DNA from: Azonexus sp.
GTDB lineage: Bacteria; Pseudomonadota; Gammaproteobacteria; Burkholderiales; Rhodocyclaceae
Reading direction: 5' to 3'
DNA: 64,000 bases
NCBI RefSeq assembly: GCF_023150235.1
Contig: NZ_JAKLLH010000011.1
Location: forward strand, 1-64,000
Translations under genes and position numbers: made by a program
Shown: piece after piece, positions 15,389-61,200 of the stretch
How the letters are laid out: the number at the start of each line of letters is the position of its first letter
How positions within the stretch are numbered: position 1 is the stretch's first letter
Notes under the pieces: model-generated
What the model was told of the DNA's origin: nothing
Seen by the model: the letters and a program-made list of their open reading frames with translations, nothing else
The model's database searches: none

Positions 15389-15404
15389 TCACGGTCGACC
15401 GTGA
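15389..15404. repeat. ACGGTCGACCGT palindrome, copy 1
   Basis: A perfect 16-nt palindrome (TCACGGTCGACCGTGA) in the serB to CheW/CZB spacer (15230-15480), which otherwise shows no gene. Confidence 0.9.
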
Positions 15405-15480
15405 AAAATGGCAAAAATGCGCTGCCCGGCTTGCGGTTACAATCCCTCGCATCCCTTTCTTCCACGGATTTTTTCCGATC

Positions 15481-16245
15481 ATGAACAGTCGCCCTGGCTC
15501 CGCACTGGAAGTCCTCCTGATCCAGGTAGGCAGCAAGACCTTCGCTCTGCCGCTTGCCGCCGTCCGCTATATAGACCGCATGCCGCCGGAGTTTTGCAGC
15601 AGCGGCGCGGGGGTCGAGGATTATTTCGTCTTCGAGGAAGAAGCCCTGAGCTTCATTTCGCTCTGGGACAGACTCGGACAGGACTCGGCTTACGCCGAAT
15701 ACGATGCCATGCAGCAGATGCTGCCGCAACGTCGCCAGGACCATCTCGACTGGATGTCCGCGCTGGAACACTCCCTGCGTAGCGGCGCCCCTTTCAGCAA
15801 GGCCCGCAATCCGCACGACTGCGCCTTTGGCCAGTGGTTCTACGCCTATCGGCCGAGCGATCGCCGCCTGAGCCTGCTACTCTCCCAGTTCGAGCAGCCG
15901 CACGCCATTATCCACGGCCTGGCCGACCGCCTGCTGGCGATGGTCGATCATGGCCAGCAGGCAGCCGCGCTTGCCGAATTCGAGACGGCCCGCGACACCA
16001 CGCTGGCCACCCTGATGCAGTTGTTCGATTCGGCCAGCCAGTTGATCGTCGAATTGCAGCGCCGCATCGCGGTCATTCTCGGCAGCGGCGAGCAGGCACG
16101 AGCCCTTGGTGCCGATGCCGTGCGGGACATCGTTCTGGTTCCCCCGGAACGTTGCAAATCGCCACACGGCAGCGGGCCGGTCGCCGGCCTGATCCTGCTC
16201 GACGACGGCCACTTGGTGCCGCTCATCGACTGGAAAAGACTCTAA
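15481..16245 (+). CDS. CheW-like domain split by a zinc-binding CZB domain
   Basis: A 254-residue protein, no signal peptide. Residues about 8-34 (EVLLIQVGSKTFALPLAAVRYIDRMP) look like the first strands of a CheW fold and the last about 20 residues (GLILLDDGHLVPLIDWKRL) like its closing strands. Between them, residues about 90-195 form a chemoreceptor zinc-binding domain: a histidine in ALEHSL, the core NPHDCAFGQWFYAY and histidines in QPHAIIH, fitting the usual 3His-1Cys site. CZB domains respond to zinc or hypochlorous acid, so this may be a soluble scaffold-like sensor. The start at 15481 excludes a repeat-bearing leader. No other chemotaxis gene is nearby. Confidence 0.75.
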   Translation: MNSRPGSALEVLLIQVGSKTFALPLAAVRYIDRMPPEFCSSGAGVEDYFVFEEEALSFISLWDRLGQDSAYAEYDAMQQMLPQRRQDHLDWMSALEHSLRSGAPFSKARNPHDCAFGQWFYAYRPSDRRLSLLLSQFEQPHAIIHGLADRLLAMVDHGQQAAALAEFETARDTTLATLMQLFDSASQLIVELQRRIAVILGSGEQARALGADAVRDIVLVPPERCKSPHGSGPVAGLILLDDGHLVPLIDWKRL

Positions 16246-16277
16246 GCACCGTCACCGGGCGCCGCATCGCCCGCGCC

Positions 16278-17057
16278 TCACTCGAAGTCGTGCGCGATCC
16301 GGTAATGCCCGGGGCGCGCCGCATCGGCCACGGCAATGGCGCTCAGCAGTTGACGGAGCGGCGAACTGGCGTCGGGGGCGATCTCGATCCGGGCGTCGAT
16401 GGCCCGCGCCCGTCCTTCGCGCGTCAGGGTGGCTTCGCCGGCCAGACGGAGGGCAGCGGATTCGCGACTGCCAAAGGCAAGACGCCCGCCGCTTGCCGCC
16501 GCAAAGGCCCAATGGACGGTGAGCGGCGGCAGATTCCGCTCCGGAAGAAGATCGAGGACGAGCTCGCTTCCCTCGATCTCTGCCTCGCCGCTCCAGCCCT
16601 CGGCCAGCACATAGTGCCACTGCCCGTGCCGGATGCCGATTCGCCCCGACCAGCCCGAACCCGGCAATCCCGGCCAGATCAGCGGGAAGCGCATTGGCCG
16701 TGTCAGCTGCAGATTCTCGGCCTTCAGCACAATCCCCAGCGGATGCGGAGCCACCCGGATGCTGCCGCCGGCGAGGTCGATACGCCACAAGCCGCTCAGA
16801 ACCCGTTCCGGCCCCCAGCGCACCTCGCCCAGATCGTGCCAGGCAGCGTCGGGCGCGGCGCGCAGGAAGAGGCGCCCTGACCCCTGCCACAGCTGGCCCT
16901 CGGGCACGGCCAGCAGACAGCGTTGCGCACAGCGCGATGCGAGCATTTCGGCAAGAATGCTGGCCGGCAGACGGACGAGGACCAGCAGGAAAAGCGCGCA
17001 AGAAATCAGCAGCGCCTGCCGCCATGCACGCCTCCGCTGCCGGCCGATCCCGTTCAT
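16278..17057 (-). CDS. gspN: Type II secretion system protein N
   Basis: A 259-residue GspN, the last gene of the gsp operon. One N-terminal membrane segment (ALLISCALFLLVLVRLPASIL, about 15-35) is followed by a periplasmic beta-rich domain with WRIDLAGGSIRVAPHPLG and ENLQLTRPM, typical of GspN. Its exact function is not settled and it is absent from some type II systems. The start MNGIGRQ at 17057 overlaps the gspM stop by 4 nt. Confidence 0.85.
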   Translation of the reverse strand: MNGIGRQRRRAWRQALLISCALFLLVLVRLPASILAEMLASRCAQRCLLAVPEGQLWQGSGRLFLRAAPDAAWHDLGEVRWGPERVLSGLWRIDLAGGSIRVAPHPLGIVLKAENLQLTRPMRFPLIWPGLPGSGWSGRIGIRHGQWHYVLAEGWSGEAEIEGSELVLDLLPERNLPPLTVHWAFAAASGGRLAFGSRESAALRLAGEATLTREGRARAIDARIEIAPDASSPLRQLLSAIAVADAARPGHYRIAHDFE

Positions 17058-17578
17058 GGCCGCTCCTGCAGGCTGCGGAATTCGGCCTCGACCTCGATCT
17101 GGCCGCTCTGCCCGGCGACGGCGTTCACCTGGCAGCGGTACAGCGACCAGCGCCGCTCGCCATGCAGTTTCGCCACCCAGTCCAGCCACTGCGCGGCGTC
17201 GACCCGGCCACGGAAAAGCAGCTCGCCCCGGGGGCCGGCCTGCGCGCTGACCTGGGTTCCCAGGGCACGGGCCTGGACGGCCAGTTCCTTCACGCCGACC
17301 TCGGCGAGCCGATCCGGCTTCGCATCCCGCGCCCGCAGCAGGCTGGCCCGCTCGGCCAGGGCACGAACCTGTTCGGCCGTCTGCGCCAGACGCGGCAGCT
17401 GCTGCCGCAGCTTTTTTCGCTCATGATGCAGCACCCAGGCGGATTGAAGGCAGAGCGAACCCAGCAGCACCAGCGCCAGTATCTGCAGAATGCGCCGTTC
17501 GCGCGGATTCCGCTGCGCCCAAAAACGCTGCCCGGCCGGCCACGCCGGAAGAGCACCATGCTGGCGATTGTTTGTCAT
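17054..17578 (-). CDS. gspM: Type II secretion system protein M
   Basis: A 174-residue GspM. A short cytoplasmic N-terminus with RNPRERRILQILALVLLG leads into a single membrane span (about 29-48), then a periplasmic coiled coil (HERKKLRQQLPRLAQTAEQVRALAERASLL) and a ferredoxin-like domain. It binds GspL in the inner-membrane platform. The start at 17578 overlaps gspL by 4 nt; an upstream ATG would extend into gspL without family resemblance. Confidence 0.9.
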   Translation of the reverse strand: MTNNRQHGALPAWPAGQRFWAQRNPRERRILQILALVLLGSLCLQSAWVLHHERKKLRQQLPRLAQTAEQVRALAERASLLRARDAKPDRLAEVGVKELAVQARALGTQVSAQAGPRGELLFRGRVDAAQWLDWVAKLHGERRWSLYRCQVNAVAGQSGQIEVEAEFRSLQERP

Positions 17579-18798
17579 CGTCCCTCTCCCGTGCTCAGCG
17601 TCACTTCCAGCATTCCTTCCCGCCGTTCCTGGCCACAGTGCAGGCCGGCGGCACGGCATGCCACGAGCAGTTCATCGACATCCGTGCCGGCCTCGCCAGC
17701 CAAGCGCGCCCGCAAGCGGCCATCGCCGTAATCGAGAGCGAGCAGGCGTCCGGCCAGGGCCGGCGCTTCGGAAAACGGGGCGAGCAAATTCAGAAAATCT
17801 CCCGCCCCCAGGCGCCCTTGCGCGCTTTCCAGGGCGTCAACATGGCGTTGCAACTGCAAGACGGCGTCCACCTGCGCGCCGCCGGGGAAAATCCGGGCAA
17901 ATTCACGGTCGACCGTGAATTTGTACTCTTTTGCCTGGTAAGCCATCCACCCCCAGTCAGCCAGGGCAGCGAGCAAGGCCAGGGCCAGAAAGCCGAGGGC
18001 GAGGAAGGCCGGGTAACGCAACTGCCGACGCCAGGCCGGCGCCCGCGCCGGAACCGCGAGCGGGCCGTAGAGAAAGCCGGCACCGCCGGGCGGCAAGCGT
18101 TGGGGCGCGGCCAGTAGTTGCAGTGTCTGGCGGTCGGCGGCCGCCAGCTCCGCGAGCAATTCCGCCTCGGTGCCGCCCTCGCTTCCACCCTCGTCCGCCA
18201 GGTAGCCGCAGCGGAGCGGAAAATCCACGCCAGCCCCGGCCAGCGCACTCCGCCAGGCGCCGAGCTCGGCAACGGCAATCGCCATGCCCCCCGGCTCGGG
18301 AAAACGGATATTCAGCCTGCCGCCCACCCACATCGCCTCGCCGGCGGGCAAGGTAAAAATCAGCGGCCAGGCGCTGCGCACGTACAGCCCGAGTTCGCCC
18401 AGGCGCTGGCACAAGGCATGCAGACGGGCCTGGGCCAGCACCCCCACCATCCGCGCCGCGCCGGCCGGTTGCGCTCCCTCGTCGAGAACCACGAAGGACA
18501 GTCGCGCCGGGTCGTCGAGAAGGTCGTCTTCGAGCACGGCCGCCAGGACTTCCGGCGACTGCGCCCGATTTCCCGCCGGGAGGACGGCCGCATGCACGGC
18601 AACCTGGATGCCGGCAAGCAGCAGATCGCAAGGCAGCCCCTGCGTCTCGCCGTCGGCCGAGGCCGGCGGGCGCGGCCACGACTCCGGGCCGCCACAGCCG
18701 CTTTCCAGCGTTCGCCCCCGCTCGTCGCGCAATATCCACGGGCATTCGCGCCGTGGATCGGGCCAGTCATCGGGAACGATCAGGGTAAGGGTCGGCAT
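17575..18798 (-). CDS. gspL: Type II secretion system protein L
   Basis: A 407-residue GspL. The cytoplasmic actin-like domain (residues 1-250) normally recruits the GspE ATPase; a membrane span (FLALGFLALALLAALADWGW, near 272-291) precedes a periplasmic ferredoxin-like domain. Just after the span, residues KFTVDREF are encoded by a perfect 24-bp palindrome (17899-17922) of the repeat family described here, so the repeat is translated in frame without breaking the gene. The start overlaps gspK at 18798. Confidence 0.92.
   Translation of the reverse strand: MPTLTLIVPDDWPDPRRECPWILRDERGRTLESGCGGPESWPRPPASADGETQGLPCDLLLAGIQVAVHAAVLPAGNRAQSPEVLAAVLEDDLLDDPARLSFVVLDEGAQPAGAARMVGVLAQARLHALCQRLGELGLYVRSAWPLIFTLPAGEAMWVGGRLNIRFPEPGGMAIAVAELGAWRSALAGAGVDFPLRCGYLADEGGSEGGTEAELLAELAAADRQTLQLLAAPQRLPPGGAGFLYGPLAVPARAPAWRRQLRYPAFLALGFLALALLAALADWGWMAYQAKEYKFTVDREFARIFPGGAQVDAVLQLQRHVDALESAQGRLGAGDFLNLLAPFSEAPALAGRLLALDYGDGRLRARLAGEAGTDVDELLVACRAAGLHCGQERREGMLEVTLSTGEGR
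17899..17922. repeat. ACGGTCGACCGT palindrome, copy 2, inside gspL
   Basis: A perfect 24-nt palindrome centred between 17910 and 17911, with AAATTC and GAATTT outer arms. It is read in frame as KFTVDREF just after the GspL membrane span. Confidence 0.95.
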
Positions 18799-19730
18799 TA
18801 TCGGTTCGAGATCCAGAGAATTCGCGGCTGCGGTAAATGTGGCTGGCGCTGGAGCAGGCTCTGCAGTTGGCTTCGGCTGCGGGCACCGCTCACCTGCACG
18901 CGGGCAAGAAAATACTGGCTGACGGTGGTCAGATCCACGAGTGCGGCCAATTGCGCCTTGTCGCCCAGGCGCCGGCGGAATTCGGCGACATCGCGAAAAG
19001 GCAGGCCGACCCGCTGCCGGGTCAGGTTGCGCGCGGCATCGAGATCCAGGCCCGGCAGAACGGCAAACAGCACCTCGGCGCCGGCCGTATTGACATTGAT
19101 CGCCTGGCTGCCGGGCAGGACGGTCGCGTGCGCCGCCAATTGCCCCATCGCCTTGCCGGCATAGCCGGGAACCCCGGCCAGGTCACCCCAGAGCAGAAGC
19201 CGCCGGCGTGACTGGCCGCTGGCCTCGGCCTGGGTGGCGGCCGCCGCCTCCGGCCTTGCCGCCAGATGGCGGAGCAAGGCATCGGCCAATGCATCGGGCA
19301 GGGCAAGCGCGGACAAGAGACGCCGATAGGCAGCGAGGGCGCTCTTGTCGACCACGCCGCCGGCGAGCACCAGGTTATTGAGATTGAATCGCCCTTGCAG
19401 GTCGGCGATCCGCCCGGAAACTTCCTTGTCTCCCTGGCGCAGGGGCGGCAGGATACGCGCCCATTCCTCATCCAGGGTATCGATGGCGGAACGACGGGCA
19501 TCGACCCCGAGCACGACCCGGCAAAAATCGAGTGCCGCATGGGCAAGAGCCGTCGCCTGATCCTTTTCCCGCATCAGCGCGACGCTTTCGATCCAGTGAT
19601 CCATGCGTTGCAGCAGCCAGGTCGCCGTGGTCGCCGCCAGCGCCACGACCAGAATCGCCGTGACCACCGCCCCGCCCTTCTGCTGCGGTCGACGCGGAAA
19701 AATGCGGAAAATGCGCTTGCCGGAAAGCAT
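18798..19730 (-). CDS. gspK: Type II secretion minor pseudopilin K
   Basis: A 310-residue GspK. After a basic leader (MLSGKRIFRIFPRRPQQKGGAVVTAILVVAL) the prepilin hydrophobic stretch begins near residue 20, and a large periplasmic domain follows with GRFNLNNLVLAGG, INVNTAGAEVLFAVLPGLD and ARVQVSGA. GspK forms the pseudopilus tip with GspI and GspJ and lacks the usual Glu5, as here. The start at 19730 lies 1 nt after the gspJ stop. Confidence 0.93.
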   Translation of the reverse strand: MLSGKRIFRIFPRRPQQKGGAVVTAILVVALAATTATWLLQRMDHWIESVALMREKDQATALAHAALDFCRVVLGVDARRSAIDTLDEEWARILPPLRQGDKEVSGRIADLQGRFNLNNLVLAGGVVDKSALAAYRRLLSALALPDALADALLRHLAARPEAAAATQAEASGQSRRRLLLWGDLAGVPGYAGKAMGQLAAHATVLPGSQAINVNTAGAEVLFAVLPGLDLDAARNLTRQRVGLPFRDVAEFRRRLGDKAQLAALVDLTTVSQYFLARVQVSGARSRSQLQSLLQRQPHLPQPRILWISNR

Positions 19731-19731
19731 C

Positions 19732-20337
19732 TCAACCCGCCGCCGGCAAATCGAAGATGCGCTCGATACGGCGTCCGTCCGGCAGGACCAGCTCGAAGCG
19801 AATGGCGCGCGGCAAATCGCCGCCCTGTGCGCTCGTGCTCCACGTCCGGCGCCACGTGCCATGGCGGTCGAGACAGGCCATATCGATCTGGCGCAAACCG
19901 TCGAGCAGGCGCAAACGCCTTACGGCGGCAGTTTCCTCGCGCCCCGACCAGAGCAGCAACCAGAGCGTGCCGCCGTCACCGCCGTCGCCCTCTTCCCAAC
20001 GATAGGCCACCCGCTGCGCCTCGCCCGTCGTCCAGGCCGGGCGCACGAAGCTCAGTTGCCCGCTGCGACGCCCTTGCTCATCAGCCGCGCTCAATTGCCA
20101 GAAAGCCGCGTCACTGCCGGGCGAGAGCGCCGGCGGCAAGGCCTGGCGCAAGTCGTTTCCGATGCGCTCGAAGGCCGCGGCCAGCGTCTGCCACTCATCG
20201 GCATGCTGCCCCAACCGGGCGGAAGCCAGGCGAACCTGGTCGAGACCGCGATAGCCGAGCACGCCGACCACCGCCAGCAAGGTGACGGCAACAAGCACCT
20301 CGATCAGGCTGAAACCTCCTGCCCGCCCCGGTCTCAC
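19732..20337 (-). CDS. gspJ: Type II secretion minor pseudopilin J
   Basis: A 201-residue pseudopilin. The prepilin peptidase site is RAGGFSLIEVLVAVTLLAVVG with Glu5 of the mature chain. The body has QADEW-like helices and ends QIDMACLDRHGTWRRTW and AIRFELVLPDGRRIERIFDL. The start is a GTG at 20337 overlapping the gspI stop (GTGA); every upstream ATG lies inside gspI in another frame. It belongs to the GspI-J-K tip complex. Confidence 0.92.
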   Translation of the reverse strand: MRPGRAGGFSLIEVLVAVTLLAVVGVLGYRGLDQVRLASARLGQHADEWQTLAAAFERIGNDLRQALPPALSPGSDAAFWQLSAADEQGRRSGQLSFVRPAWTTGEAQRVAYRWEEGDGGDGGTLWLLLWSGREETAAVRRLRLLDGLRQIDMACLDRHGTWRRTWSTSAQGGDLPRAIRFELVLPDGRRIERIFDLPAAG

Positions 20338-20711
20338 AAGCCCCCCACGAAACTGTTCAGTTGTGCCAGGGGCTGCGAGCTTCCCGCCGCATGCACCCGG
20401 ATCTCGACGCGACGAAACATCTCCTGCGGCATGGCGCCGACCGTCATCTGCCAGGCGAAGCGTTCGCCGCCCAATTCGGTCTCGCCTCTTTCCTCGCCGG
20501 GTGGCGGCACCTGGCGCGTCGCCCGCAACGAGGCGAGGCGGTTTTCCGCCACCCAAGCCGCCAATTGCCGCGAACGCAGGGCGTCGGCCGTATCCGAGCT
20601 GCCGACCCCGGCCCGTATCGCGGCCACCAGGCCAATGGCCAGGATCGCCAGGGCGACGAGAACCTCGATCAAGGTAAAGCCCGCCAGCGGCAGGCGAGTG
20701 CGCGGACTCAT
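20334..20711 (-). CDS. gspI: Type II secretion minor pseudopilin I
   Basis: A 125-residue pseudopilin beginning MSPRTRLPLAGFTLIEVLVALAILAIGL, with the Gly-Phe cleavage site, Glu5 and the characteristic later motif LAAWVAENRLASLRA. GspI nucleates the pseudopilus tip. The start at 20711 overlaps the gspH stop by 4 nt. Confidence 0.95.
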   Translation of the reverse strand: MSPRTRLPLAGFTLIEVLVALAILAIGLVAAIRAGVGSSDTADALRSRQLAAWVAENRLASLRATRQVPPPGEERGETELGGERFAWQMTVGAMPQEMFRRVEIRVHAAGSSQPLAQLNSFVGGL

Positions 20712-21223
20712 GGCATTTCCCGCACGCTGACCAGGCCGCTGACCCCGCCTTCGAGCAACCACTGCCGACCCGCTCCCCGGAGATGCAGGACGAACAGGGT
20801 GGGCTGAGCGGAAAAAACCACCCGCCCAGAGACGGGCATGGCCATGCCCTCCACCTCGAGGGCCTGCACCGAGAGATCCTGGGGCAAGGACGGCGGGGGC
20901 TGGGAGGTGCCGCCGACGGGCAGCCAGCCTCCGACCCCGCTCCCTTCGGCGCCGGGGAGCGCCTGCCAGACTTTTCCCTGGTCGGCATCGATGCCCCAGG
21001 CGTGATCGCGTCCGCTGCCACGGGCCTGCAAGCCCGCCCAGGCGGCTTGTGCCGCGAGTTGCTCGACCGCCCGGCGCTGCCCGGCCAGACCCTCGTCGGG
21101 CAAGGTCACGACCACCGCTCCCGCCAGAATGCCGACGATCACCAGCGCCACCAGGATTTCAAGCAGCGTGAAGCCGGCTTCCGCGCCATGCGGCCCGCTA
21201 CTGCCAGTTGCCGATATCGGCAT
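20708..21223 (-). CDS. gspH: Type II secretion minor pseudopilin H
   Basis: A 171-residue pseudopilin with EAGFTLLEILVALVIVGILAGAVVV (cleavage after Gly, Glu5) and a C-terminal beta-rich domain resembling GspH. The start at 21223 (MPISATGSSG) overlaps the end of gspG by 26 bp; a longer in-frame start at 21271 cannot be excluded. It is thought to join the main pseudopilus to its tip. Confidence 0.9.
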   Translation of the reverse strand: MPISATGSSGPHGAEAGFTLLEILVALVIVGILAGAVVVTLPDEGLAGQRRAVEQLAAQAAWAGLQARGSGRDHAWGIDADQGKVWQALPGAEGSGVGGWLPVGGTSQPPPSLPQDLSVQALEVEGMAMPVSGRVVFSAQPTLFVLHLRGAGRQWLLEGGVSGLVSVREMP

Positions 21224-21662
21224 CGGACCCCTCGCCGCCGGCCACGCCATCCGCGCCGAAGCTGAAGACATCGATCTCGCCGCGCAGGCCGGGATTCAGG
21301 AACTGGTACGGCTGGCCCCAGGGATCGAGCGGCAGGCGTTCGATGTAGCCGCCCTGCTTCCAGCCCTCGGGAACCGGTGCCTGCTGCGGCTTGCTTACCA
21401 GTGCCTGCAGACCTTGTTCGGTCGTCGGGTAGCGGCGGTTGTCGAGCCGATACAGCTTGAGTGCCTGCGCCAGCGAGGCGATATCCTGGCGCGCGGCCAC
21501 TACCCGCGACTCGTCGGGGCGGCTCATCACCTTGGGTACGACCAGCGCGGCCAGGATGCCGAGAATGACCACGACGACCATGATTTCGATCAGCGTGAAT
21601 CCGCGCTGGGTCGGCAGGTTTCCGCCATGGCGCGGAAGAGGATTGAAAAGTTGCTTTTTCAT
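21198..21662 (-). CDS. gspG: Type II secretion major pseudopilin G
   Basis: A 154-residue major pseudopilin: QRGFTLIEIMVVVVILGILAALVVPKVMSRPDE, then ALKLYRLDNRRYPTTEQGLQALV and YIERLPLDPWGQPYQFLNPG, and a C-terminal DADIGNW, all classic GspG. Its start codon and the 7-nt stretch ATGAAAA are shared with the end of the 169-bp hairpin element immediately upstream, so its Shine-Dalgarno (GGAG) lies inside that element. Confidence 0.97.
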   Translation of the reverse strand: MKKQLFNPLPRHGGNLPTQRGFTLIEIMVVVVILGILAALVVPKVMSRPDESRVVAARQDIASLAQALKLYRLDNRRYPTTEQGLQALVSKPQQAPVPEGWKQGGYIERLPLDPWGQPYQFLNPGLRGEIDVFSFGADGVAGGEGSDADIGNWQ

Positions 21663-23025: not shown

Positions 23026-23071
23026 GCCCCAAGCTTCGTCAAGGCCGGCGCGGCGATGGAGAAAAGCATGC

Positions 23072-29960: not shown

Positions 29961-30458
29961 ATGAACAAATTCTGGCAAAAAGCCGCGTTGACCGTGGCAG
30001 CGACCCTCGCCATCGGCGCTGCGCATGCAGCGGCGCAAGTCGGCAAGGAAAGCCCGGCCTTCTCGCTGCTCACCGACGCCGGTCAGATCAAACTCTCCGA
30101 CCTCAAGGGCAAAGTGGTCTACGTCGACTTCTGGGCCTCCTGGTGCGGCCCCTGCCGCGCCTCCTTCAAGTGGTTGAACGAGGCTCAGGAAAAATACGCC
30201 GCCAAGGGTCTGGTGATCGTCGGCATCAACGTCGACAAGGACAAGGCGGCGGCGGCCGAATTCCTCAAGGAAAACCCGGCCAAGTTCCGCATCGCCTACG
30301 ACCCGGAAGGCAAGGCGGCGGAAAGCTACCAGCTCAAGGGCATGCCCAGCACCTTCTTCATCGACCGCAAGGACGTCGTGCGCCTGACGCACGTCGGCTA
30401 CCGCATCAAGGACAAGGAAGCCCTGAGCGCGGAACTCGAAAAATTGTTGGCCGAGTAA
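29961..30458 (+). CDS. TlpA/ResA-type periplasmic thioredoxin
   Basis: A 165-residue exported thioredoxin-like protein. A signal peptide (KAALTVAATLAIGAAHAAA) precedes the fold, with KVVYVDFWASWCGPCRASF holding the WCGPC active site and the cis-proline in GMPSTFFID. Such proteins reduce periplasmic disulfides, often apocytochrome CxxCH thiols, using electrons from DsbD; a DsbD gene closes this cluster. The start at 29961 gives a clean signal peptide; an earlier ATG would add residues encoded by the terminator. The substrate may be the diheme protein or the cysteine-rich DUF4266 protein. Confidence 0.9.
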   Translation: MNKFWQKAALTVAATLAIGAAHAAAQVGKESPAFSLLTDAGQIKLSDLKGKVVYVDFWASWCGPCRASFKWLNEAQEKYAAKGLVIVGINVDKDKAAAAEFLKENPAKFRIAYDPEGKAAESYQLKGMPSTFFIDRKDVVRLTHVGYRIKDKEALSAELEKLLAE

Positions 30459-31943: not shown

Positions 31944-32857
31944 TGTCGCGTTCTTCGACCGCGCATCGCGAAATATCCCTCGTCCGCCACGACGAGGGGT
32001 ATTTCGCCCTTCATTACCAGGCGCTGGGTGGTCCGTGCGAGGTGCTTTTCGACCACGACGACCCGGCGGCGGTACGCCTGGCCGCGAGCCAGGCAGCGGC
32101 GGAAACCTGGCGAATAGAGGAGAAATTCAGCCGTTATCGCAAGGACAGCGTGGTCGGTCGCATCAACGCGGCCCAGGGGAGCGAAATCCGGCTCGACGAC
32201 GAAAGCTGTGCCTTGATCGACTATGCCCATGCCTGCCACGCCTTGAGCGACGGACGCTTCGACATCACCTCGGGTGGCCTGCGCCGGGTATGGCGCTTCG
32301 ACGGAAAGGGCAAGCTGCCGTCGCCCCGCGCGGTGGCAGCCTGTCTGCCGCTGATCGGCTGGGACAAGCTTCGCTGGCGGCGCCCCAGCCTCTGGCTGCC
32401 CAAGGGGATGGAAATCGATCTCGGCGGAATTGGCAAGGAATACGCCGTCGACCGTGTTGCGCAAGGCCTGCAGGCGGCGGGAATGGCGCATGCGCTGATC
32501 AATTTCGGCGGCGATCTGCGCGTTACCGGGCCACGCCGCGACGGGCGCCCCTGGATGATCGGCATCGACGATCCACGGGCCACCGGGGTCGGCATCGTCT
32601 CGGCACAGAGCATCGCACACGGCGCCCTGGCGACCAGCGGCGATGCTCGCCGCTTCATCGTCGCCCGGGGCCGGCGTTACGGCCACATTCTCGATCCGCG
32701 CACCGGCTGGCCGGTTCCCGACGCACCGCGTTCCGTCAGCGTCCGGGCCGCCACCTGCCTCGAGGCGGGAATGATGGCCACCTTCGGCATCCTCAACGGG
32801 GCGGATGCGGAAGCTTATTTGCAATCACAAGGGGTAGTTCATTATGTTGTCAGATAG
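31943..32857 (+). CDS. apbE: ApbE-like FAD:protein FMN transferase without signal peptide
   Basis: A 304-residue ApbE-family enzyme, which attaches FMN to a Ser or Thr of target proteins using FAD and Mg. Visible family blocks are EIDLGGIGKEYAVDRVA, LINFGGDLRVTG, ATSGDARRF and HILDPRTGWPV with its metal-binding residues. Most ApbE proteins are exported lipoproteins, but here the ATG at 31943 begins SRSSTAHREISLVRHDEGYF, with no signal peptide and none in frame upstream, so the enzyme is probably cytoplasmic. Its target is not evident. The stop overlaps dsbD by 14 nt. Confidence 0.88.
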   Translation: MSRSSTAHREISLVRHDEGYFALHYQALGGPCEVLFDHDDPAAVRLAASQAAAETWRIEEKFSRYRKDSVVGRINAAQGSEIRLDDESCALIDYAHACHALSDGRFDITSGGLRRVWRFDGKGKLPSPRAVAACLPLIGWDKLRWRRPSLWLPKGMEIDLGGIGKEYAVDRVAQGLQAAGMAHALINFGGDLRVTGPRRDGRPWMIGIDDPRATGVGIVSAQSIAHGALATSGDARRFIVARGRRYGHILDPRTGWPVPDAPRSVSVRAATCLEAGMMATFGILNGADAEAYLQSQGVVHYVVR

Positions 32858-36302: not shown

Positions 36303-36307
36303 CGGTT

Positions 36308-36574
36308 TCACCTCAATTCGCCGATTTCCACGGTCGACCGTGGAAAAATCAGTTTTTCGTCCATCCGGCAAGCCGCGACGATGCGCGGATCGAGCCGGGT
36401 TTCCAGGCGACGGCTGGCGCGTTCGCACAATTCCCGCGTCACGGTGTCGATATCCTTGTCCTCGCTCAGGCAATCGAGGAGCCGAATGGCATGCCGCGCC
36501 GAATGCGGGCAGCCGGTTTCGTCATGAATCAGCAGCTGGCTCAATACGCCAGCCCAGAGTGGGGGTGTCGGCAT
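36308..36574 (-). CDS. Small protein of unknown function (88 aa)
   Basis: An 88-residue ORF with no family I recognise. It is helical and charged in its second half (LLDCLSEDKDIDTVTRELCERASRRLETRLDP) and has cysteines in GCPHSARH, LLDCL, ELCER and AACRMDE. Its C-terminal LIFPRSTVEIGELR is encoded through palindrome copy 3. A Shine-Dalgarno (GGAGGAAAGTGCA-ATG) supports translation, and it sits 5 nt before the DUF2325 gene in one operon. Confidence 0.65.
   Translation of the reverse strand: MPTPPLWAGVLSQLLIHDETGCPHSARHAIRLLDCLSEDKDIDTVTRELCERASRRLETRLDPRIVAACRMDEKLIFPRSTVEIGELR
36325..36346. repeat. ACGGTCGACCGT palindrome, copy 3
   Basis: A perfect 22-nt palindrome with TTTCC and GGAAA outer arms. 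It is translated in frame as PRSTVE near the end of the 88-residue protein. Confidence 0.95.
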
Positions 36575-40326: not shown

Positions 40327-40826
40327 ACAAAAGACGCTTCCTCGCCGGCCTTTTCTGCCTTTGCTGCCTGTCGACCGTGAATGCGGCCGACGAGCAGCCC
40401 TCGGCGGCGCCGCTCTTCGCGGCAACGCTCAGCGATATCGACGACAAGCCGGTTGCGCTCGAACGCTTTCGCGGCAAACCGCTGATCGTGAACTTCTGGG
40501 CGCGCTGGTGCGGCCCCTGCCGGGCCGAAATCCCGGAATTGATCAAGTTTCGCCAGGCACACAAGGGCAAGCTTGAGGTGCTTGGCATCGGCATCGAGGA
40601 CAAGGCCGAGCCAGCCAGGGAATTTGCCAAGGCCTACGAGATGGACTACCCGGTCTTCGTCGCCAAGGATCAGGGCATCCCGCTGATGAAGGAACTCGGC
40701 AACAGCCGTGCCGGCTTGCCCTACACCCTATTCATCGACCGCCACGGCCAGGTCGTTCAGCGCAAGATGGGTACCGTCAGGAAAGCCGACCTGGAAGCCA
40801 TCGAGGCGACGCTGTTCAGGAAGTAA
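40323..40826 (+). CDS. TlpA-type periplasmic thioredoxin of the nos group
   Basis: A 167-residue exported thioredoxin-like protein from a TTG start at 40323 that overlaps the nosY stop. The signal peptide is RRFLAGLFCLCCLSTVNAAD; the active site is NFWARWCGPCRAEIP and the cis-proline lies in GLPYTLFID. A role in keeping NosL or nitrous oxide reductase cysteines reduced is plausible. Bases 40370-40380 in the signal peptide are a half copy of the palindrome. Confidence 0.9.
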   Translation: MNKRRFLAGLFCLCCLSTVNAADEQPSAAPLFAATLSDIDDKPVALERFRGKPLIVNFWARWCGPCRAEIPELIKFRQAHKGKLEVLGIGIEDKAEPAREFAKAYEMDYPVFVAKDQGIPLMKELGNSRAGLPYTLFIDRHGQVVQRKMGTVRKADLEAIEATLFRK

Positions 40827-40874: not shown

Positions 40875-40924
40875 CGGAAAAAACTCGTTTTTCACGGTCG
40901 ACCGTAAAAAAACCGGTTTTTCCG
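40875..40924. repeat. ACGGTCGACCGT palindrome, copy 4, in a composite hairpin
   Basis: The 12-nt core is at 40894-40905. Around it TTTTT pairs with AAAAA, and an outer CGGAAAAA (from 40875) pairs with TTTTTCCG (to 40924), giving a long stem after the last nos gene. It could end transcription in both directions. Confidence 0.85.
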
Positions 40925-43336: not shown

Positions 43337-44494
43337 ATGATCCTCGACAAACTGTTCCAGTTGATGGCCGACAAGCAGGCCTCCGACATCTTCATCTCGG
43401 CCGGCGCGGCGATCCATATCAAGATCGGCGGCGTCTCGATGCCGGTGAACCAGCAAGTAATGGTTCCCGAAATGATCGAGAAGATGGCCTACGAACTACT
43501 GACGCCGGCACAGATCCAGGTCTTCGAGGAAAAGCTGGAGATGAACCTGTCGGTCGGCATTCCGAATGTCGGCAACTACCGGATCAACATCTTCCGCCAG
43601 CGCGGCGCAGTGGCGATGGTGGTCCGCTACATCCCGGCGACGATCCCGGCGCTGAGCGAACTCGGCGTGCCGGCGGTGCTGCCCGAACTGATCATGGAAA
43701 AGCGCGGCCTGATCCTGGTCGTCGGCTCGACTGGCTCGGGCAAGTCGACGACCATCGCGGCGATGCTCGACCACCGCAACACGCATTACTCGGGCCACAT
43801 CCTGACTGTCGAGGACCCGGTCGAATTCGTCTTCTCGCACAAGAAATCGATCGTCAACCAGCGCGAGATCGGGCTTGACACCCTGGACTGGAATTCGGCG
43901 CTGAAGAGCGCAATGCGTCAGGCACCGGACTGCATCCTGATCGGCGAAATCCGCGATAAGGAAACCATGCAGGCGGCGATTGCCTACGCCCAGACCGGCC
44001 ACCTCTGCGTCGCCACGCTGCACGCCAACAACAGCTACCACGCGCTCAACCGCATCATCAGCTTCTTCCCGCTGGAGAACCGGCCGGCGCTGTTTCTCGA
44101 CCTCTCGGTCGCGCTCAAGGCGATCATTTCGCAGCGCCTGGTCAAGCAGCCGGACGGCAAGCGCGTGCCGGCCTGCGAAGTGCTGCTCAACACCCGCTAC
44201 ATTTCCGAACTGATCGAAAAAGGCGAGGTGCAGCAGATCAAGGAAGCCATGGAGCAAACTCTGGCCCCCGGTTCCCAGACTTTCGAGCAAGACCTTTTCC
44301 GCCTTTACCGCGAAGGCATCGTCAGCTTGGACGAAGCCTTGGCCAACGCCGATTCGCCGACCAATCTGTCGTGGCTGATCAACAACTCCGACCAGAGCGC
44401 CGAACTCGCCAACGGTGTCGAAGCCGCCCCCGGCGGCAAAGGCGAAGGCGCTTCGTTCAGCGAATTCAAGCTCGAAGTAAAGGGCGCGGGCTGA
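43337..44494 (+). CDS. pilU: Type IV pilus retraction-type ATPase PilU
   Basis: A 385-residue PilT/PilU ATPase. The N-terminal PAS-like domain (KLFQLMADKQASDIFISAGAAIHIKIGG) is followed by Walker A (VGSTGSGKSTTIAAML), Asp box (TVEDPVEFVFSHKKS), Walker B with DCILIGEIRDKETMQAA and His box (HLCVATLHANN). The acidic, extended C-terminus and SHKKSIVNQRE favour PilU over PilT. It assists PilT in pilus retraction. No pilT is in the window. Confidence 0.88.
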   Translation: MILDKLFQLMADKQASDIFISAGAAIHIKIGGVSMPVNQQVMVPEMIEKMAYELLTPAQIQVFEEKLEMNLSVGIPNVGNYRINIFRQRGAVAMVVRYIPATIPALSELGVPAVLPELIMEKRGLILVVGSTGSGKSTTIAAMLDHRNTHYSGHILTVEDPVEFVFSHKKSIVNQREIGLDTLDWNSALKSAMRQAPDCILIGEIRDKETMQAAIAYAQTGHLCVATLHANNSYHALNRIISFFPLENRPALFLDLSVALKAIISQRLVKQPDGKRVPACEVLLNTRYISELIEKGEVQQIKEAMEQTLAPGSQTFEQDLFRLYREGIVSLDEALANADSPTNLSWLINNSDQSAELANGVEAAPGGKGEGASFSEFKLEVKGAG

Positions 44495-44597: not shown

Positions 44598-44607
44598 CAC
44601 GGTCGAC
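44598..44607. repeat. Degenerate half copy of the palindrome upstream of parE
   Basis: CACGGTCGAC is one arm and centre of the palindrome; the other arm has decayed (TCCG). It lies 24 nt before the parE start. Confidence 0.5.
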
Positions 44608-44630
44608 TCCGTTTTTTTGTGATTTTGCCC

Positions 44631-48003: not shown

Positions 48004-48958
48004 CAGCAACGAGCCGGACTTTTGCGGCTACCTGCAACGGCAGCTGCTCGGCTGCGAACTGCCGCCGGCACAGCAAACCAGCTACCGCCGCCTGCTCACC
48101 ACCGCCCTGCACGGCGCACCGTTCCAGTTCGTCCTGTGCGAGATTTTTGACCAAACCCGGCGCGACCGCCTGATCGAGATCATCGACCAGGCCGCGGCCA
48201 CCGCCGGCCTGAGCAGCCACCGCATCGACTGCCGCGAACTCCCCGACAGCGCCGGGCTTGAGGTGCTGGAAGCGCTGCTGAACGATCTCGCCGCCCGGCA
48301 CACCATCCTGCACCTCTGCGGCTTTGATCACTGGCTCAGCCGGGAACGCTGGCAGGCCTTGAACATCCGCCGCGACGCCATCGCCGCCCGCTGCCGCGCC
48401 AGACTGCTGTGGTGGCTGGACCCGGACAGCGTCCGCCAGTGCGCCCTCGAAGCCCCCGACCTGTGGGCCTGGCGCAGCGGTGTTTATGACTTTACCAATA
48501 CCACCCCGCCCACCCTCCCCACCCAGGCCAGCTACGCCCCGACCATCGACCCGCGCTCGACACTGGAACGCACCCAGCGCATCGGTCAGATCAAAGCCTG
48601 GCTGCAACAGAATCCTCCTGACGAACTGCGCCTGCCCTTGCTTGATGAATTGGCCACCCTGCTGCAGGACTTTGGACAACTCGATGAGGCACTACGCATC
48701 CGCCTCAATGAAGAAATGCTGGGCTACGAAGAACTCGGGGACGTACACAGTCTTTTGATGACCGAAGCCAATATCGCAATCACGCTGATCAAGCGCGGCC
48801 ACTCCCAAGACCTCCCTGAAGTTCGCCGCCGCCTGCAGCGGGCGCTCGAACTCGCCGAGCAGATGCAACTCCCCAAGGAAATCTCGACCATCCACCAATA
48901 TTTGGACAACCTGCCTGCGCCGCGCCGGAAAAAAGCCAAAAAACACGGTCGACCGTAA
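47987..48958 (+). CDS. Partner protein with C-terminal TPR-like helices
   Basis: A 323-residue protein translated from the ATG at 47987, overlapping the ATPase. The first 165 residues contain PFQFVLCEIFDQTRRDRLIEIID, ILHLCGFDHWLSRERWQALNIRRDAIA and LLWWLDPDSVRQCALEAPDLWAWRSGVYDF, a block I associate with N-termini of STAND/TPR signalling ATPases. Residues about 215-300 form TPR-like helix pairs (LLDELATLLQDFGQLDEALRIRLNEEMLG). The last residues KKHGRP and the stop codon are encoded by palindrome copy 5. No catalytic site is visible. Confidence 0.72.
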   Translation: MSPATNSNEPDFCGYLQRQLLGCELPPAQQTSYRRLLTTALHGAPFQFVLCEIFDQTRRDRLIEIIDQAAATAGLSSHRIDCRELPDSAGLEVLEALLNDLAARHTILHLCGFDHWLSRERWQALNIRRDAIAARCRARLLWWLDPDSVRQCALEAPDLWAWRSGVYDFTNTTPPTLPTQASYAPTIDPRSTLERTQRIGQIKAWLQQNPPDELRLPLLDELATLLQDFGQLDEALRIRLNEEMLGYEELGDVHSLLMTEANIAITLIKRGHSQDLPEVRRRLQRALELAEQMQLPKEISTIHQYLDNLPAPRRKKAKKHGRP

Positions 48959-50287: not shown

Positions 50288-50994
50288 GCCTTTCCTCCCT
50301 CGGCCAGCCGCTCGGCCACGGTTTTAGCCACCTTGTCGCGAATGTAGAGCGGCGCGGCCAGGGCGGCATCGATGCCCTCGCCCCGCGCCAGGCGGGGTGC
50401 GGCCAGGGCGGCGACAATGGCTGCTCGCGGCAGGATGCCGTCTTCCACGGTCAACCCGGCGGCGAGCAGATTTTCCCGCAATCGGGGATAAGCCGCCGGG
50501 GCATTGCCGCAGGCATGCCAGCCGGCACGATTGCCGAGATCGATGTCTTCCGGGCGCTGCACACGCAGGGTGGCTCGCGCCCAGGGGCTTTCCGTCGTCG
50601 CAGAGCGGGTGCCGGGATAGGCGCCGACATAAACCTCGCCCATGCGCGCATCGAGCAGGGCCAGCAGCGGGCGATCCCCGGCCTCGCGGCTGTCGGCGGC
50701 CATGGCTTCGAGACTGACGACGGGCAACAGGGGCGTCGCGGCGGGCATGGCCAGCCCCTGTGCCGCGGCGCAGGCGACGCGCAGACCGGTGAAGGCTCCC
50801 GGGCCGCAGCCAAAGGCAATGGCGTCGAGATCATTCACGGTCGACGCTGCCTCGGCCAGCAATTCGCCAACCAGCGGCAGGAGGGTTTCCGAGTGCGGCC
50901 GCCCCGGCGGGCAGACGCGTTCAAGCACCTCGCCATCGCGCCAGAGGGCGCAGGTGGCGAATTCGGTGGAGGTTTCCAGGGCAAGGATCAGCAT
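50284..50994 (-). CDS. tsaB: tRNA t6A synthesis protein TsaB
   Basis: A 236-residue ASKHA-fold protein: MLILALETSTEFATCALWRDG, HSETLLPLVGELL, and IAFGCGPGAFTGLRVACAAAQGLA. It scaffolds TsaD and TsaE in forming N6-threonylcarbamoyladenosine at position 37 of ANN-decoding tRNAs. An ATG three codons earlier (51003) is equally possible. A half copy of the palindrome lies at 50834-50845 within TVND. Confidence 0.94.
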   Translation of the reverse strand: MLILALETSTEFATCALWRDGEVLERVCPPGRPHSETLLPLVGELLAEAASTVNDLDAIAFGCGPGAFTGLRVACAAAQGLAMPAATPLLPVVSLEAMAADSREAGDRPLLALLDARMGEVYVGAYPGTRSATTESPWARATLRVQRPEDIDLGNRAGWHACGNAPAAYPRLRENLLAAGLTVEDGILPRAAIVAALAAPRLARGEGIDAALAAPLYIRDKVAKTVAERLAEGGKA

Positions 50995-55643: not shown

Positions 55644-56168
55644 TCAGACCGGATCACGGTCGACCGTGTTTTCCGGCCGATTTTCTCCCCCTCCCGCCAC
55701 CGCCGTGGTCGGGCGCATCGCACGGCGATTGCCAATCGCATCGACCGGCACGCGCAGGATTTCGTGCTGCTGCGGCGAAAGCAGATCGGCCAGGGTCTGC
55801 CGGTCCAGGCTACCAAGAAAGGCATCCAGCGCATTGCCGAGTACCGCCCGCAGGCGGCAACTGCCGGTCAGCAGGCAGCGGCTTTCGCCGGCAAAGCACT
55901 CGACCAGGGCCAGATCGCTTTCCATGTCGCGCACCACCTGCCCGATTCCGATCCGCGCGGCCGGCCGCGCCAGTCGCAAACCGCCCCCCTTGCCGCGCAA
56001 ACCCTCGACATAGCCATTGCGGATCAGTTGATTGACGATTTTCATCAGGTGGCTGCGCGACACCTCGAAACGCCCGGAAATTTCCTGGATGGTCGCCAGG
56101 CGATGCTCGTTGGCCCCGAGATAAATGAGGACGCGCAAGGCATAATCCGTGTGCAGGGTGATATGCAT
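55644..56168 (-). CDS. nsrR: Rrf2-family repressor, NsrR-like
   Basis: A 174-residue Rrf2 protein. The winged helix is LHTDYALRVLIYLGANEHRLATIQEISGRFEVSRSHLMKIVNQL, followed by GKGGGLRLARPA. The three iron-sulfur cysteines are in VECFAGESRCLLTGSCRL, the spacing of NsrR rather than IscR. NsrR senses nitric oxide through its cluster and represses detoxification genes. The last residues (ENTVDRDPV) are an extension encoded by palindrome copy 6. It is divergent from ccoG. Confidence 0.85.
   Translation of the reverse strand: MHITLHTDYALRVLIYLGANEHRLATIQEISGRFEVSRSHLMKIVNQLIRNGYVEGLRGKGGGLRLARPAARIGIGQVVRDMESDLALVECFAGESRCLLTGSCRLRAVLGNALDAFLGSLDRQTLADLLSPQQHEILRVPVDAIGNRRAMRPTTAVAGGGENRPENTVDRDPV
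55655..55668. repeat. ACGGTCGACCGT palindrome, copy 6
   Basis: A perfect 14-nt palindrome (CACGGTCGACCGTG) in the 3' end of the nsrR-like gene, read in frame as TVDRD. An outer CCGGA/TCCGG pair encloses it. Confidence 0.92.
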
Positions 56169-57956: not shown

Positions 57957-57968
57957 ACGGTCGACCGT
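57957..57968. repeat. ACGGTCGACCGT palindrome, copy 7
   Basis: The 12-nt core with TTAC before and AA after, in the 57869-58213 spacer after ccoG. The rest of that spacer is the 169-bp element; no gene is seen. Confidence 0.9.
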
Positions 57969-58051
57969 AATATTGGCCTTTTTTCTCTGCCCGCCATCGC
58001 CAGGGCTCTCCGGCTCTCGAGCCCGGCGACGGCCGACCTGACCGCGTTTTC

Positions 58052-58220
58052 GAGCAAGAAATTAGCGACAGGCATTCATGCCTGTCGGTCAAACATGTTT
58101 GGGAAGGGGTTTGCATCCCCTCCCAAAACGCTCGCCTGAAACCCCGGCCTTCAGGCCGGGGTCGGCTCCCACCGCCCTGAAGGGCGGGGTTTCAAACCGG
58201 AGTTAGTCTTACGATGAAAA
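58052..58220 (+). mobile_element. 169-bp multi-hairpin element, copy B
   Basis: The plus-strand copy of the element at 21656-21824, here ending on the sbcC start codon (ATGAAAA shared). It begins GAGCAAGAAATTAGCG, holds the GACAGGCAT/ATGCCTGTC, CCCCGGCCT/AGGCCGGGG and CCGCCCT/AGGGCGG hairpins and ends ACCGGAGTTAGTCTTACG before the ATG, which supplies sbcC with a GGAG Shine-Dalgarno. Confidence 0.8.
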
Positions 58221-61200
58221 TCCTCCGCCTGCGCCTGAAAAACCTCAATTCGCTGAAGGGCGAATGGGCCATCGACTTCACCCAGCCGCCGTTTGCCGAC
58301 AACGGCCTGTTCGCCATCGTCGGCCCGACCGGCGCCGGCAAATCGACGCTGCTCGACGCGATCTGCCTCGCGCTCTACCACCAGACGCCCCGGCTGAAGA
58401 CCATTTCGACCGGCGACAACGACCTGATGACGCGGCACACCGCCGACTGCCTGGCCGAGGTCGAATTCGAGGTCAAGGGCGCCCATTACCGCGCTTTCTG
58501 GAGCCAGCGCCGCTCCCGCGACAAGGCCGACGGCGCGCTGCAGGCGCCCAAGGTGGAACTGTGCACCGGCAATGGCGAAATCCTCGCCAGCCAGAGCAAG
58601 GAAAAACTCGAACGGATCGCCCGAATCACCGGCCTCGATTTCCCCCGCTTCACCAAGTCGATGCTGCTTGCGCAAGGCGGGTTTGCCGCCTTCCTCAACG
58701 CCAGCGCCAACGAGCGCGCCGAACTGCTCGAAGAGCTGACCGGCAGCGAAATCTACGGCCAGATCTCGCAGCGCGTTTTCGAGCGTGCCCGCGAAGCACG
58801 CGAACGCGTCGCGCAACTGCGCGCGCGTGCCGACGGCGTCGAACTACTCACACCGGAAACGCGCCAGGCCAACGAAAACACTACCGCGACCCTGGCCGAA
58901 CGCCAGCAAACCCTGCTTCTACACTCGCAAAACCTGCAGGCGCAACGCCAATGGCGGCTCGACCTGGGCCGCGCCGAGCAAGCCCGGCTCACCGCCAGCG
59001 AACGCCTGCACGCCGCGCAGGCAGCCGCCCAGGCCGCCGCCCCGGCGCTCACCCGGCTCGCCGCCAGCGAACCGGCGCTCCGGCTGCAACCGCTGCACGC
59101 CCGCTGGCAAGACGCCGAACGGGCGCTGGCCGACAACCGGCGGCAAGCCGCCGAGATCGCCGCGCAACGTGTAGCGCATGGCCGCCAGCAAGGCACGGCC
59201 GCGATGCAAGCCGGCCACGCCGCCGCCGAACTCGCCGCCCTCGCCGCCGGACAATTGCAGGTTCTGCATGGCGAACGCCAGGCGCTGGAAGAATTTTTCG
59301 TCGCCCAGGCCCGACGCGGCCAGCTCGGCGAACGCCTCGACGGCTGGCAGCGCGACTTCGCCAGCCGCCACAAGCTGCAGGCGCGCGCCGCCGAACTCGC
59401 CGCCGAAGCCCGGCAGCTCGCCACCCAACGGGAACAACGGCAAGCCGCGCGAGCGCAGCAGCAAACCACGGTCAACCGCGCCGAACAGGCAAAAACCGCC
59501 GCCGACGCAGCGCTCGCCAGCGGCGAACGCGAACAGGCGCAGCGCCTCGCCGGGCGCCCCCTGGCCGACTGGCGGCAAGCTGCGCAACAGGCCCGCCAGG
59601 CGCAACAGGTCTGGCAGCAGCTCGGCGAGCTCGGCCGCCAGCGCCACGAGCTGACCGCCGCCGGCAACCGCCTCCGGGACCAGCGCCAGGCCGGCGAACA
59701 GGCACTGGCCGCGCTCGAAAGCCAGCTCGCCGGCTTGCGCCAGCGCTACAAGCTGCAGGCCGAGGCCGTCGCCGACAAGAAAAAGCTGCTCGAACAGGAG
59801 CAGCGGATCAAGGACCTCGACGCGCTGCGCCGCGACTTGCAGCCCGACAGCCCCTGCCCGCTCTGTGGCTCGACCCGGCACCCGGCGGTCGCCGCCTACG
59901 CCGCGCTCGACCTCGGCGCCACCGCCACCGCACTGCAGGCGGCCGAAAACGCACTCGAACAGACCCGCGAGGAAGGCAACCGCGCCAAGGAAAAGCTCGC
60001 CGCCCAACAAGCCAGCCTCAAAGGCTGGCAGGAACAGCAGAGCGACCTCGACCGCCGCCTGGCACGCTGGGAGGACAACTGGCAGGCCCAGGCCGGGCAA
60101 CTGATGGCGAGCGATGCCGGCGCTGTGCCGGCCAGTGCAGCGGCCAGCGCGGCGGGCGGCGAGATCAACGCCGTCGTCGCGGCCACCGACCTTTGGCGCG
60201 ACCCGGCGGCACTGGCACAGGCCACCGCCGCCGCCGAGCAGACCGCCCAGGTGCGACAGCAGGCGCTGCAAGCCGCCGAGGCCGGCGAACAAGCGCTGCA
60301 ACAAGCCCGCCAGCAGGCTGCCCAGGCCAGCCAGGCGCAGCTTGCGGCAAGCGCCGCGCTGGCCTTGCTCGACCAGGAACTGCAAGGCCTCGCCGAGCGT
60401 CAGGCGGCCAACGCCAAGGCCGGCGCCGATGGCGCCCGCGAACTCACGGCTCTCGACGCGCAGCTGGCGGCGCAGCTCGCCGCCGCCGGCCAGACCCCGC
60501 CAGCCGACCCCGGCCCGGCCGGCAATGCCGCCTGGCTCGCCGAACGCCAGGCCGAATGGCGCGACTGGCAAGAGCGCCAACAACGTCGGCAAACGTTGGC
60601 CGAACGGCTCGTGCGGCAGCAAGGCGCGGCCACCGCGGCGCAAGAGGAAGCCGAACGCTGGCAGGCGATTGTCGCGACGCTAGCAGCGGCCGATTTTTCG
60701 TTATTTTCACGGTCGACCGTGGAAATAACGAAAAACCACGGCGAACCGAGCCAAAGCGCCCCGATGGCTACGAAAAGCCCTGGCAAAACCACGGAAAACA
60801 CCGCCGAGGAGCGCACCTGCCGCGACACCGCCACCGAACAACTAGCCGAACAACTGGCCACCGCCGCTGCCGACTACGCCGCCGCGACCCAGGCGCTGGC
60901 CGCCAGCGATGGCCGCGGGCAGCAACTGGCCGAACAGCAAGCCGCCCTGCACGCCGCGCTCGACGCTGCCGCCAGCGCCTGGCAGCAAGCCCTCGCCGTC
61001 AGCCCTTTCGCCGACCTCGCGGCGTACGCCGCCGCGCTGCTGGCGCCGGAAGAACGACTGGCGCTGCAAAGCCTGAAGGAAGAACGCGAACAGGCACTGA
61101 AGCAGGCCGAAGCCCTGCACGCCGCCGCCGGCGAACAACTGGCCCGGCTGCAGGCGGCTCCGCCACCGGGTGCAGCCGCAGACGCCGGCACGGAAGACGG

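Follow-up and report, generated by a model that had tools for sequence, protein, structure and literature searches.

An oriented repeat motif in Azonexus and its relatives as a probable DNA-uptake signal

Described uptake signals and the Azonexus motif

Self-specific DNA-uptake signals are ascribed to only two families, Neisseriaceae and Pasteurellaceae, in a 2025 paper (PMC12616744), and a 2026 terminator survey of thousands of genomes, in which uptake motifs were sought in terminators, arrives at the same two families (PMC13020248). The uptake signal sequence (USS) of Pasteurellaceae occurs as the Hin type, AAGTGCGGT, and the Apl type, ACAAGCGGT[C], and the DNA uptake sequence (DUS) of Neisseriaceae is GCCGTCTGAA with its dialects. 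The present analysis concerns a 64,000-nucleotide stretch of Azonexus sp. (contig NZ_JAKLLH010000011.1 of assembly GCF_023150235.1, positions 1 to 64,000; hereafter the window), in which a 12-bp palindrome, ACGGTCGACCGT, recurs. This palindrome belongs to a longer oriented motif. Judged by its likeness to the described systems, that motif probably serves DNA uptake in natural transformation within a betaproteobacterial genus, as a signal by which cells recognise and take up the DNA of their kin. Among the matches listed from the open-licence literature, judged by title and the start of the abstract, no earlier account of this motif in this group was found.

Like the USS, the motif is present in hundreds to more than 1,000 copies, in both orientations and in coding and non-coding DNA; its sites are not insertions, dialects exist, and inverted pairs are formed. 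The 3′ A/T segments, a weak and a strong one here, resemble the two of the USS in lying about one helical turn apart, and the GCGGT of the USS is found here in the [T/C]GCGGTC dialects. The commonest Apl-type 10-mer, ACAAGCGGTC, contains GCGGTC as these dialects do, according to PMC1626085. Unlike the gammaproteobacterial USS of Pasteurellaceae, the present motif has a betaproteobacterial host, its core runs on as GGTC[G/A]AC, and the dialect of the Azonexus genome itself has ACGGT where the USS has GCGGT. Its density is about a third, and it forms overlapping palindromic double sites that are enriched between genes. Neisseriaceae are also a betaproteobacterial family, and the DUS resembles the motif in being a genome-wide repeat with dialects (eight in the DUS) and inverted repeats. 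In contrast to the core CGGTC[G/A]AC with 3′ A/T tracts found here, the DUS has a conserved CTG core and, according to PMC1626085, no flanking motifs; its receptor is ComP. As its traits are USS-like and only two families are known, the motif is regarded as probably USS-like in its working and as a member of neither family.

Anatomy and genomic arrangement of the motif

The own genome (G000) comprises 3.42 Mb in 50 contigs, and detailed counts were made on a sample of 454 kb (13% of the genome), consisting of the window and 20 further stretches. A sequence-only reading of the window had reported eight copies of ACGGTCGACCGT and a strong enrichment, and both observations hold. All eight copies were recovered (Table 1), and with up to two mismatches the window contains 16 matches, against a mean of 2.9 and a maximum of 8 in 100 dinucleotide shuffles. 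The whole genome carries 236 copies and a single copy of the reversed control pattern; in the sample, 33 copies stand against 0.11 expected under an order-3 Markov model, far above other 12-nt palindromes, the next of which reach 3 copies each.

The palindrome is a minority, doubled form of the oriented motif. The unit consists of a core, [C/T/G][A/G]CGGTC[G/A]AC (CACGGTC[G/A]AC in the own genome), and two A/T segments on its 3′ side spaced by about one helical turn, the nearer (about +13 to +17) weak and the farther (+24 to +27) strong. Unbiased k-mer counts in the sample rank two non-palindromic strings, CACGGTCGAC (140 copies against 10.2 expected, both strands) and CACGGTCAAC (49 against 3.4), with the most enriched. 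In 130 non-palindromic ACGGTC[AG]AC sites, selected by the core alone, C stands at −1 in 83%, and A or T (W) at +24 to +27 in 87, 93, 92 and 81%, with a background of 37%; on the 5′ side W reaches at most 66%, with a peak at −4. The pattern YRCGGTCRAC-N15-WWWW matches 581 times forward and 550 times in reverse in the own genome (reversed control, 0 + 2), giving about 1,100 units on both strands, and 163 strand-sites were counted in the sample against 0–3 in five order-4 Markov simulations. Owing to the self-complementarity of GTCGAC, a few extra matching bases suffice to produce two overlapping head-to-head units, which is what the palindrome represents: at the tract distance, at least three of four positions are W on both sides in 32 of 33 copies, and all four on both sides in 16 of 33. 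Other repeats in the same material are the palindrome AAACATGTTT (9 copies against 0.26 expected in the sample) and families with GTTAGTCTTA (9) and AGATTCAACC (24), as strand-summed counts.

This anatomy bears on two alternatives. The sequence-only reading had proposed selection on a hairpin or a dyad-symmetric binding site. The repeat family under selection, probably a protein-binding sequence, stands; the plain dyad-symmetric site is not supported, since most sites are single and oriented with a strong A/T tract on one side, and a binding site consisting of the palindrome only was rejected on the same grounds. A sequence held at high frequency by methylation or restriction might also be considered, as the core contains GTCGAC, the type of sequence that methyltransferases recognise. 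This explanation is very improbable: it leaves the orientation and the 3′ A/T tracts at a fixed distance unexplained, and GGTCGACC alone is about twofold over expectation (90 against 48). Counts of GGTCGACC in four relatives confound the motif with coding background and were left out of account.

Single sites and palindromes are arranged differently with respect to genes, which were called with a simple home-made codon-usage caller (393 genes; 87.4% of the sample coding). Coding sequence holds 94 of the 117 single sites, 40 in sense and 54 in antisense orientation. The palindromes are shifted to non-coding DNA (19 of 33). The flanking genes of these 19 are convergent in 9 cases, tandem in 9 and divergent in 1; the corresponding intergenic lengths in the sample are 14.5, 22.8 and 13.0 kb. 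No local strand polarity was found in nine stretches (coding position and polarity were examined in the sample and in stretches of four relatives), and + and − sites alternate approximately as by chance, which speaks against replication-polar motifs. Polar recombination or segregation signals comparable to Chi or to FtsK-orienting polar sequences (KOPS) would likewise be short oriented motifs in hundreds of copies. A Chi/KOPS-type motif was rejected, as the orientation is mixed, with chance-like local runs in the nine stretches and the division between sense and antisense given above; the probability left to this explanation is as slight as that of methylation. The sample contains 142 loci with a mean spacing of 3.2 kb. 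Their spacing is more even than chance would give: the ratio of gap variance to squared mean gap is 0.65, as opposed to 0.985 in simulations (P 0.003), and the longest gap is 11.2 kb against a simulated mean of 17.3 kb (P 0.006).

The arms outside the 12-mer had been described as differing between copies while still pairing, and a permutation test bears this out beyond base composition for positions 1–12. In the 33 copies, positions 1–6 pair in 126 of 198 cases and positions 7–12 in 93 of 198, with permuted means of 101.6 and 69.6; neither observed value was reached in 2000 permutations. No significant excess was found in these copies at positions 13–19 (P 0.09) and 20–30 (P 0.60). Perfect arms extend up to 17 bp, so that some copies are true long inverted repeats, and are 2 bp or shorter in 22 of 33. 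Among relatives, pairing is significant at positions 1–6 in 25 copies of genome G030, and nothing significant was seen in G181, with only 5 copies. A secondary hairpin role or an origin by template switching is possible for the paired arms.

If the palindromes acted at gene ends as transcription terminators or as RNA hairpins of another kind, this would account for their preference for intergenic DNA, for the 9 of 19 that lie between convergent genes and for the longest arms. A run of at least six T in the 10 nt after the core follows only 2 of 33 palindromes, so that classical terminators are not the rule, and a plain terminator was rejected as a candidate. Several palindromes lie just past a separate GC hairpin with a T run (e.g., at L017, L010 and L020), and most copies of the motif are single and inside genes. 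As an explanation of the family, termination is therefore improbable, and for the palindromes it is likely a secondary use at most.

Distribution among relatives and evolution of the sites

Absence of the repeat from relatives would have spoken against its significance, and relatives do carry both the palindrome and the motif. In a 60-genome set including the own genome, the exact palindrome occurs 120 times in G030, 27 times in G018 and 0–7 times in other genomes of the genus. The pattern RCGGTCRAC-N15-WWWW is bimodal in 76 genomes of the genus, several of them incomplete: 36 have 5–137 copies (poor), 40 have 380–1673 (rich), and none lies between. The strong A/T tract is 77–82% W in five rich genomes. 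The cores fall into the dialects CACGGTC, GACGGTC and [T/C]GCGGTC. CACGGTC makes up 908 of 1138 copies in G000, 872 of 1148 in G181, 651 of 775 in G002, 466 of 1345 in G030 and 21 of 909 in G121; [T/C]GCGGTC is preferred in G029, G031 and G008, and G030 also uses GACGGTC. In the poor genomes G034, G180, G185, G207 and G171 (5 of the 36), no comparable 9- or 10-mer that might be an alternative dialect was among the top 12 listed from 100 kb each, about 2–3% of the genome. A family-wide sample of 121 genomes included 3 of this genus and 118 of other genera; the highest counts in the latter were 18 (G090) and 12 (G165), with the rest at or near the control level.

Several observations were made alongside these counts. 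Seven motif strand-sites of G090, a genome of another genus with 18 in total, lie within 20 kb (G090:C38:35001-55000, L280), a clustering that suggests DNA imported from a motif-rich species. The listed copies of poor G182 likewise appear clustered on few contigs (C10, C14 and C25), as expected of imported patches. In stretches L025–L044 of G030, overlapping 10-mers (among them GAGCTGCCTA and CACTGCCGGA) occur about 76 times and probably form an array of clustered regularly interspaced short palindromic repeats (CRISPR). In G008 (L060–L064), CACGTGAAAC occurs 8 times on both strands of 100 kb against 0.1 expected; these may be parS-like sites.

For 70 of the 76 genomes, the rich and poor states were placed on a single-gene tree, that of Mfd, which was made by a quick method and has many weak forks. 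The two states change 14 times on it, at least 10 of them on well-supported branches, as compared with 23.5 for shuffled labels. The rich genomes G000 and G181 come out as sisters with a poor group close by (a weak join), and rich G030, with 1345 copies, is placed among poor G182, G006, G190 and G187. These changes bear on the strongest of the alternatives, namely that the sites bind a chromosome-organising or segregation protein (nucleoid-associated, SlmA/Noc/MatP-like or condensin-loading) that bends DNA through phased A/T tracts. The 236 palindromes, the phasing, the even spacing and the retention of motif parts in a sister species agree with such a protein, and the sites of SlmA, Noc, parS and MatP are similarly palindromic, sequence-specific and repeated. 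Those sites are, however, far fewer and position-restricted, whereas most sites here are single, oriented and inside genes in both orientations. Moreover, this single-gene tree would require the whole set of about 1,100 sites to have appeared or disappeared no fewer than ten times inside one genus, which is hard to square with an essential chromosome function. A chromosome-organising protein is therefore unlikely, and a nucleoid or replication role in general fits worse than an uptake signal.

Comparison of orthologues indicates how the sites arose. Querying 318 coding sites gave 60 orthologous pairs (at least 45% identity) that spanned a site. Of 39 rich-to-poor pairs, 32 had no gap, none kept the full motif and 4 kept the core; of 21 rich-to-rich pairs, 17 had no gap and 6 kept the motif. 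The orthologues being mostly ungapped, most sites are base changes in existing codons and not insertions, as in the Haemophilus USS according to PMC1626085. A mini-mobile element, which the sequence-only reading had thought possible and which the hundreds of palindromic copies might suggest, is contradicted by these pairs and by the sister-genome comparison. The 33 copies share nothing outside core and A/T tracts, and repetitive extragenic palindromic (REP) elements and miniature inverted-repeat transposable elements (MITE) were rejected as there is neither a shared body nor an insertion pattern; an element of REP, MITE or Correia type has the smallest probability of all the alternatives, practically nil.

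Direct comparison of DNA agrees with the orthologue data. Against rich sister G181 (88–94% identity), 4 of 5 covered sites of the window are kept. At site 10571 the spacer has changed (GCGCTTGTCTC against GCCGCAGGATC) between an identical core and an identical A/T tract, direct evidence that both parts of the motif are under selection. Against poor G180, G182 and G187, none of 4 sites is kept in each. Summed over stretches, 7 of 94 single sites are kept from rich to poor genomes, a set whose relatedness differs from that of the rich-to-rich set, and 5 of 26 are kept between rich G030 and the neighbouring poor genomes G182 and G187, at about 86% identity. A per-position substitution profile from 19 ungapped rich-to-rich comparisons is only suggestive.

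Table 1. Palindromes, single oriented sites and related features; positions refer to the window unless a genome and contig are given (ORF, open reading frame).
Feature	Position	Strand	Remarks
Palindrome ACGGTCGACCGT	15391..15402	.	Between genes; two overlapping opposite motifs
Palindrome	17905..17916	.	In ORF 17575-18798(-), type II secretion system protein L-like, 24.6 bits, just below Pfam cut-off 25.5
Palindrome	36330..36341	.	In short called ORF 36308-36544(-)
Palindrome	40894..40905	.	Between genes
Palindrome	48945..48956	.	Stop codon of ORF 47987-48958(+); faces convergent uracil-DNA-glycosylase-family gene 48972-49829(-)
Palindrome	55656..55667	.	Within the final codons of Rrf2-family gene 55644-56168(-), which converges with SbcD-like gene 54333-55592(+)
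Palindrome	57957..57968	.	Between genes: FixG-like upstream, SbcC-like downstream
Palindrome	60709..60720	.	In SbcC-like gene 58214-61888(+)
Single oriented site	10546..10574	+	In mfd; core and A/T tract; kept in G181
Single oriented site	19684..19712	+	TGCGGTCGAC form
Single oriented site	44598..44626	+	Directly upstream of parE; kept in G181
Single oriented site	50446..50474	+	CACGGTCAAC form
Single oriented site	50836..50864	+	
Single oriented site	59467..59495	+	In SbcC-like gene; G030 orthologue also with motif
Single oriented site	5211..5239	-	
Single oriented site	10571..10599	-	In mfd; in G181 core and A/T tract same, spacer diverged
Single oriented site	13060..13088	-	Not kept in G181
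Single oriented site	14442..14470	-	Kept in G181
Single oriented site	29968..29996	-	
Single oriented site	32428..32456	-	
Single oriented site	40351..40379	-	
PilT/PilU family type 4a pilus ATPase (pilus retraction)	43337..44494	+	TIGR01420, 421 bits, cut-off 319
comEC element locus	G002:C33:108001-146000		L267-L268
comEC element locus	G207:C1:2217001-2253500		L269-L270

Competence machinery and the uptake-signal reading

Overrepresentation, both orientations, presence in coding and non-coding DNA, lack of polarity, origin by substitution and dialects are among the features by which uptake sequences are recognised, and these were found in the motif. Regarding the machinery, the PilT/PilU-family ATPase encoded in the window is presumed to be part of the uptake machine. 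The own genome further has a ComEC frame of 870 amino acids and 15 prepilin-like matches, and thus combines prepilins, the PilT/PilU family and ComEC, as looked for in a genome with a type IV pilus and ComEC. An apparent type II secretion gene cluster also lies in the window (16278-26649, minus strand), with four prepilin-like genes at about 19.7–21.7 kb. On contig C12, two adjacent genes, L068 and L078, are minor-pilin-like; we call them PilE-type (L068) and FimT/FimU-like (L078), names of our own, as only the general prepilin signal passes the NCBIfam cut-off. Along the mature domain, profiles of L068 relatives match the PilA structures 8tum and 9laa and the minor pilin PilE (4noa), and profiles of L078 relatives match FimU (4ipu). 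A DUF3570 query gave no match in 19 relatives.

Several results weigh against an uptake signal. Relatives of both C12 minor pilins occur in rich as well as poor genomes, and these pilins do not separate the two classes, so that no receptor is singled out by the pilin queries, which covered these two and the N_methyl family; FimT gives a weak, partial or no match in many rich genomes, and none in G030. Nor does the presence of ComEC divide the classes, as the family is matched in all rich genomes but one (39 of 40) and in 32 of the 36 poor ones; an interrupted, partial or frame-changed comEC occurs on both sides (rich G002 and G008; poor G034, G017 and G207). With about 0.31 loci per kb, the motif has a third of the density cited for USS and DUS, which is approximately 1 per kb. 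Of its A/T tracts, the first is weak and lies farther from the core than in the Pasteurellaceae motif. The extra pairing of the arms calls for a second, hairpin-like cause, and the scarcity of T runs after the palindromes is unlike the terminator pairs of Neisseria and Haemophilus. Finally, only 12 of 28 single sites are kept between rich genomes (both directions counted), 8 of the 12 coming from the G000–G181 pair, and many are unshared between distant rich genomes.

The state of comEC deserves separate description. The gene reaches contig ends in rich G018 and poor G006; in G018 both pieces end at contig ends with an overlap of about 40 residues, and the gene may be whole. In G002 and G207, comEC is interrupted at the same residue (about 337–340) by an integrative element of 32–34 kb, whose first gene encodes a large serine recombinase with Resolvase, Recombinase and zinc-ribbon domains above cut-off, and the piece in G017 likewise starts at residue 337. 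That the same residue is hit in two species suggests that a mobile element targets the gene for DNA import and interrupts it. No motif site lies in the 33.7-kb element of rich G002, where the genome average predicts about 6, an absence in keeping with foreign DNA. In poor G034, comEC is in two frames (G034:C1:1958001-1962000, L271); this genome has 32 motif copies, and its compared proteins are 67–95% identical to those of rich G029 and G008.

From the anatomy, counts, distribution, dialects and conservation of the motif, we infer a receptor, uptake and a preference for marked DNA. A receptor on the cell surface, most likely one of the minor type IV pilins, would bind the core, with the phased A/T tracts perhaps assisting in the bending or kinking of the duplex. 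Pilus retraction by PilT/PilU would then draw the marked DNA through the outer membrane, and ComEC would pass one strand inside, where recombination could follow. Marked, kin-derived DNA would thus be preferred, and the preference would maintain the marks. Palindromes gather between genes and at gene ends, where coding constraint is low, and their paired arms may double as hairpins.

With somewhat less confidence than the uptake function itself, we favour the view that the motif represents a third, independently evolved uptake-signal system. Such a system would have split dialects, at least ten whole gains or losses among about 70 species, and a doubled, palindromic form of the label that can be read from both sides; it would gate gene flow between species, and its likeness to the USS would point to a shared physical rule by which the pilus receptor and the outer-membrane pore grip and kink DNA. 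Against the wider questions of how self-specific uptake arises, why it is rare and what reads the signal, this genus, with its 40 marked and 36 unmarked species, near neighbours of both kinds and graded dialects, offers a natural experiment on gain, loss, receptor co-evolution and barriers to gene flow, and the motif may be of use in establishing laboratory transformation of these bacteria.

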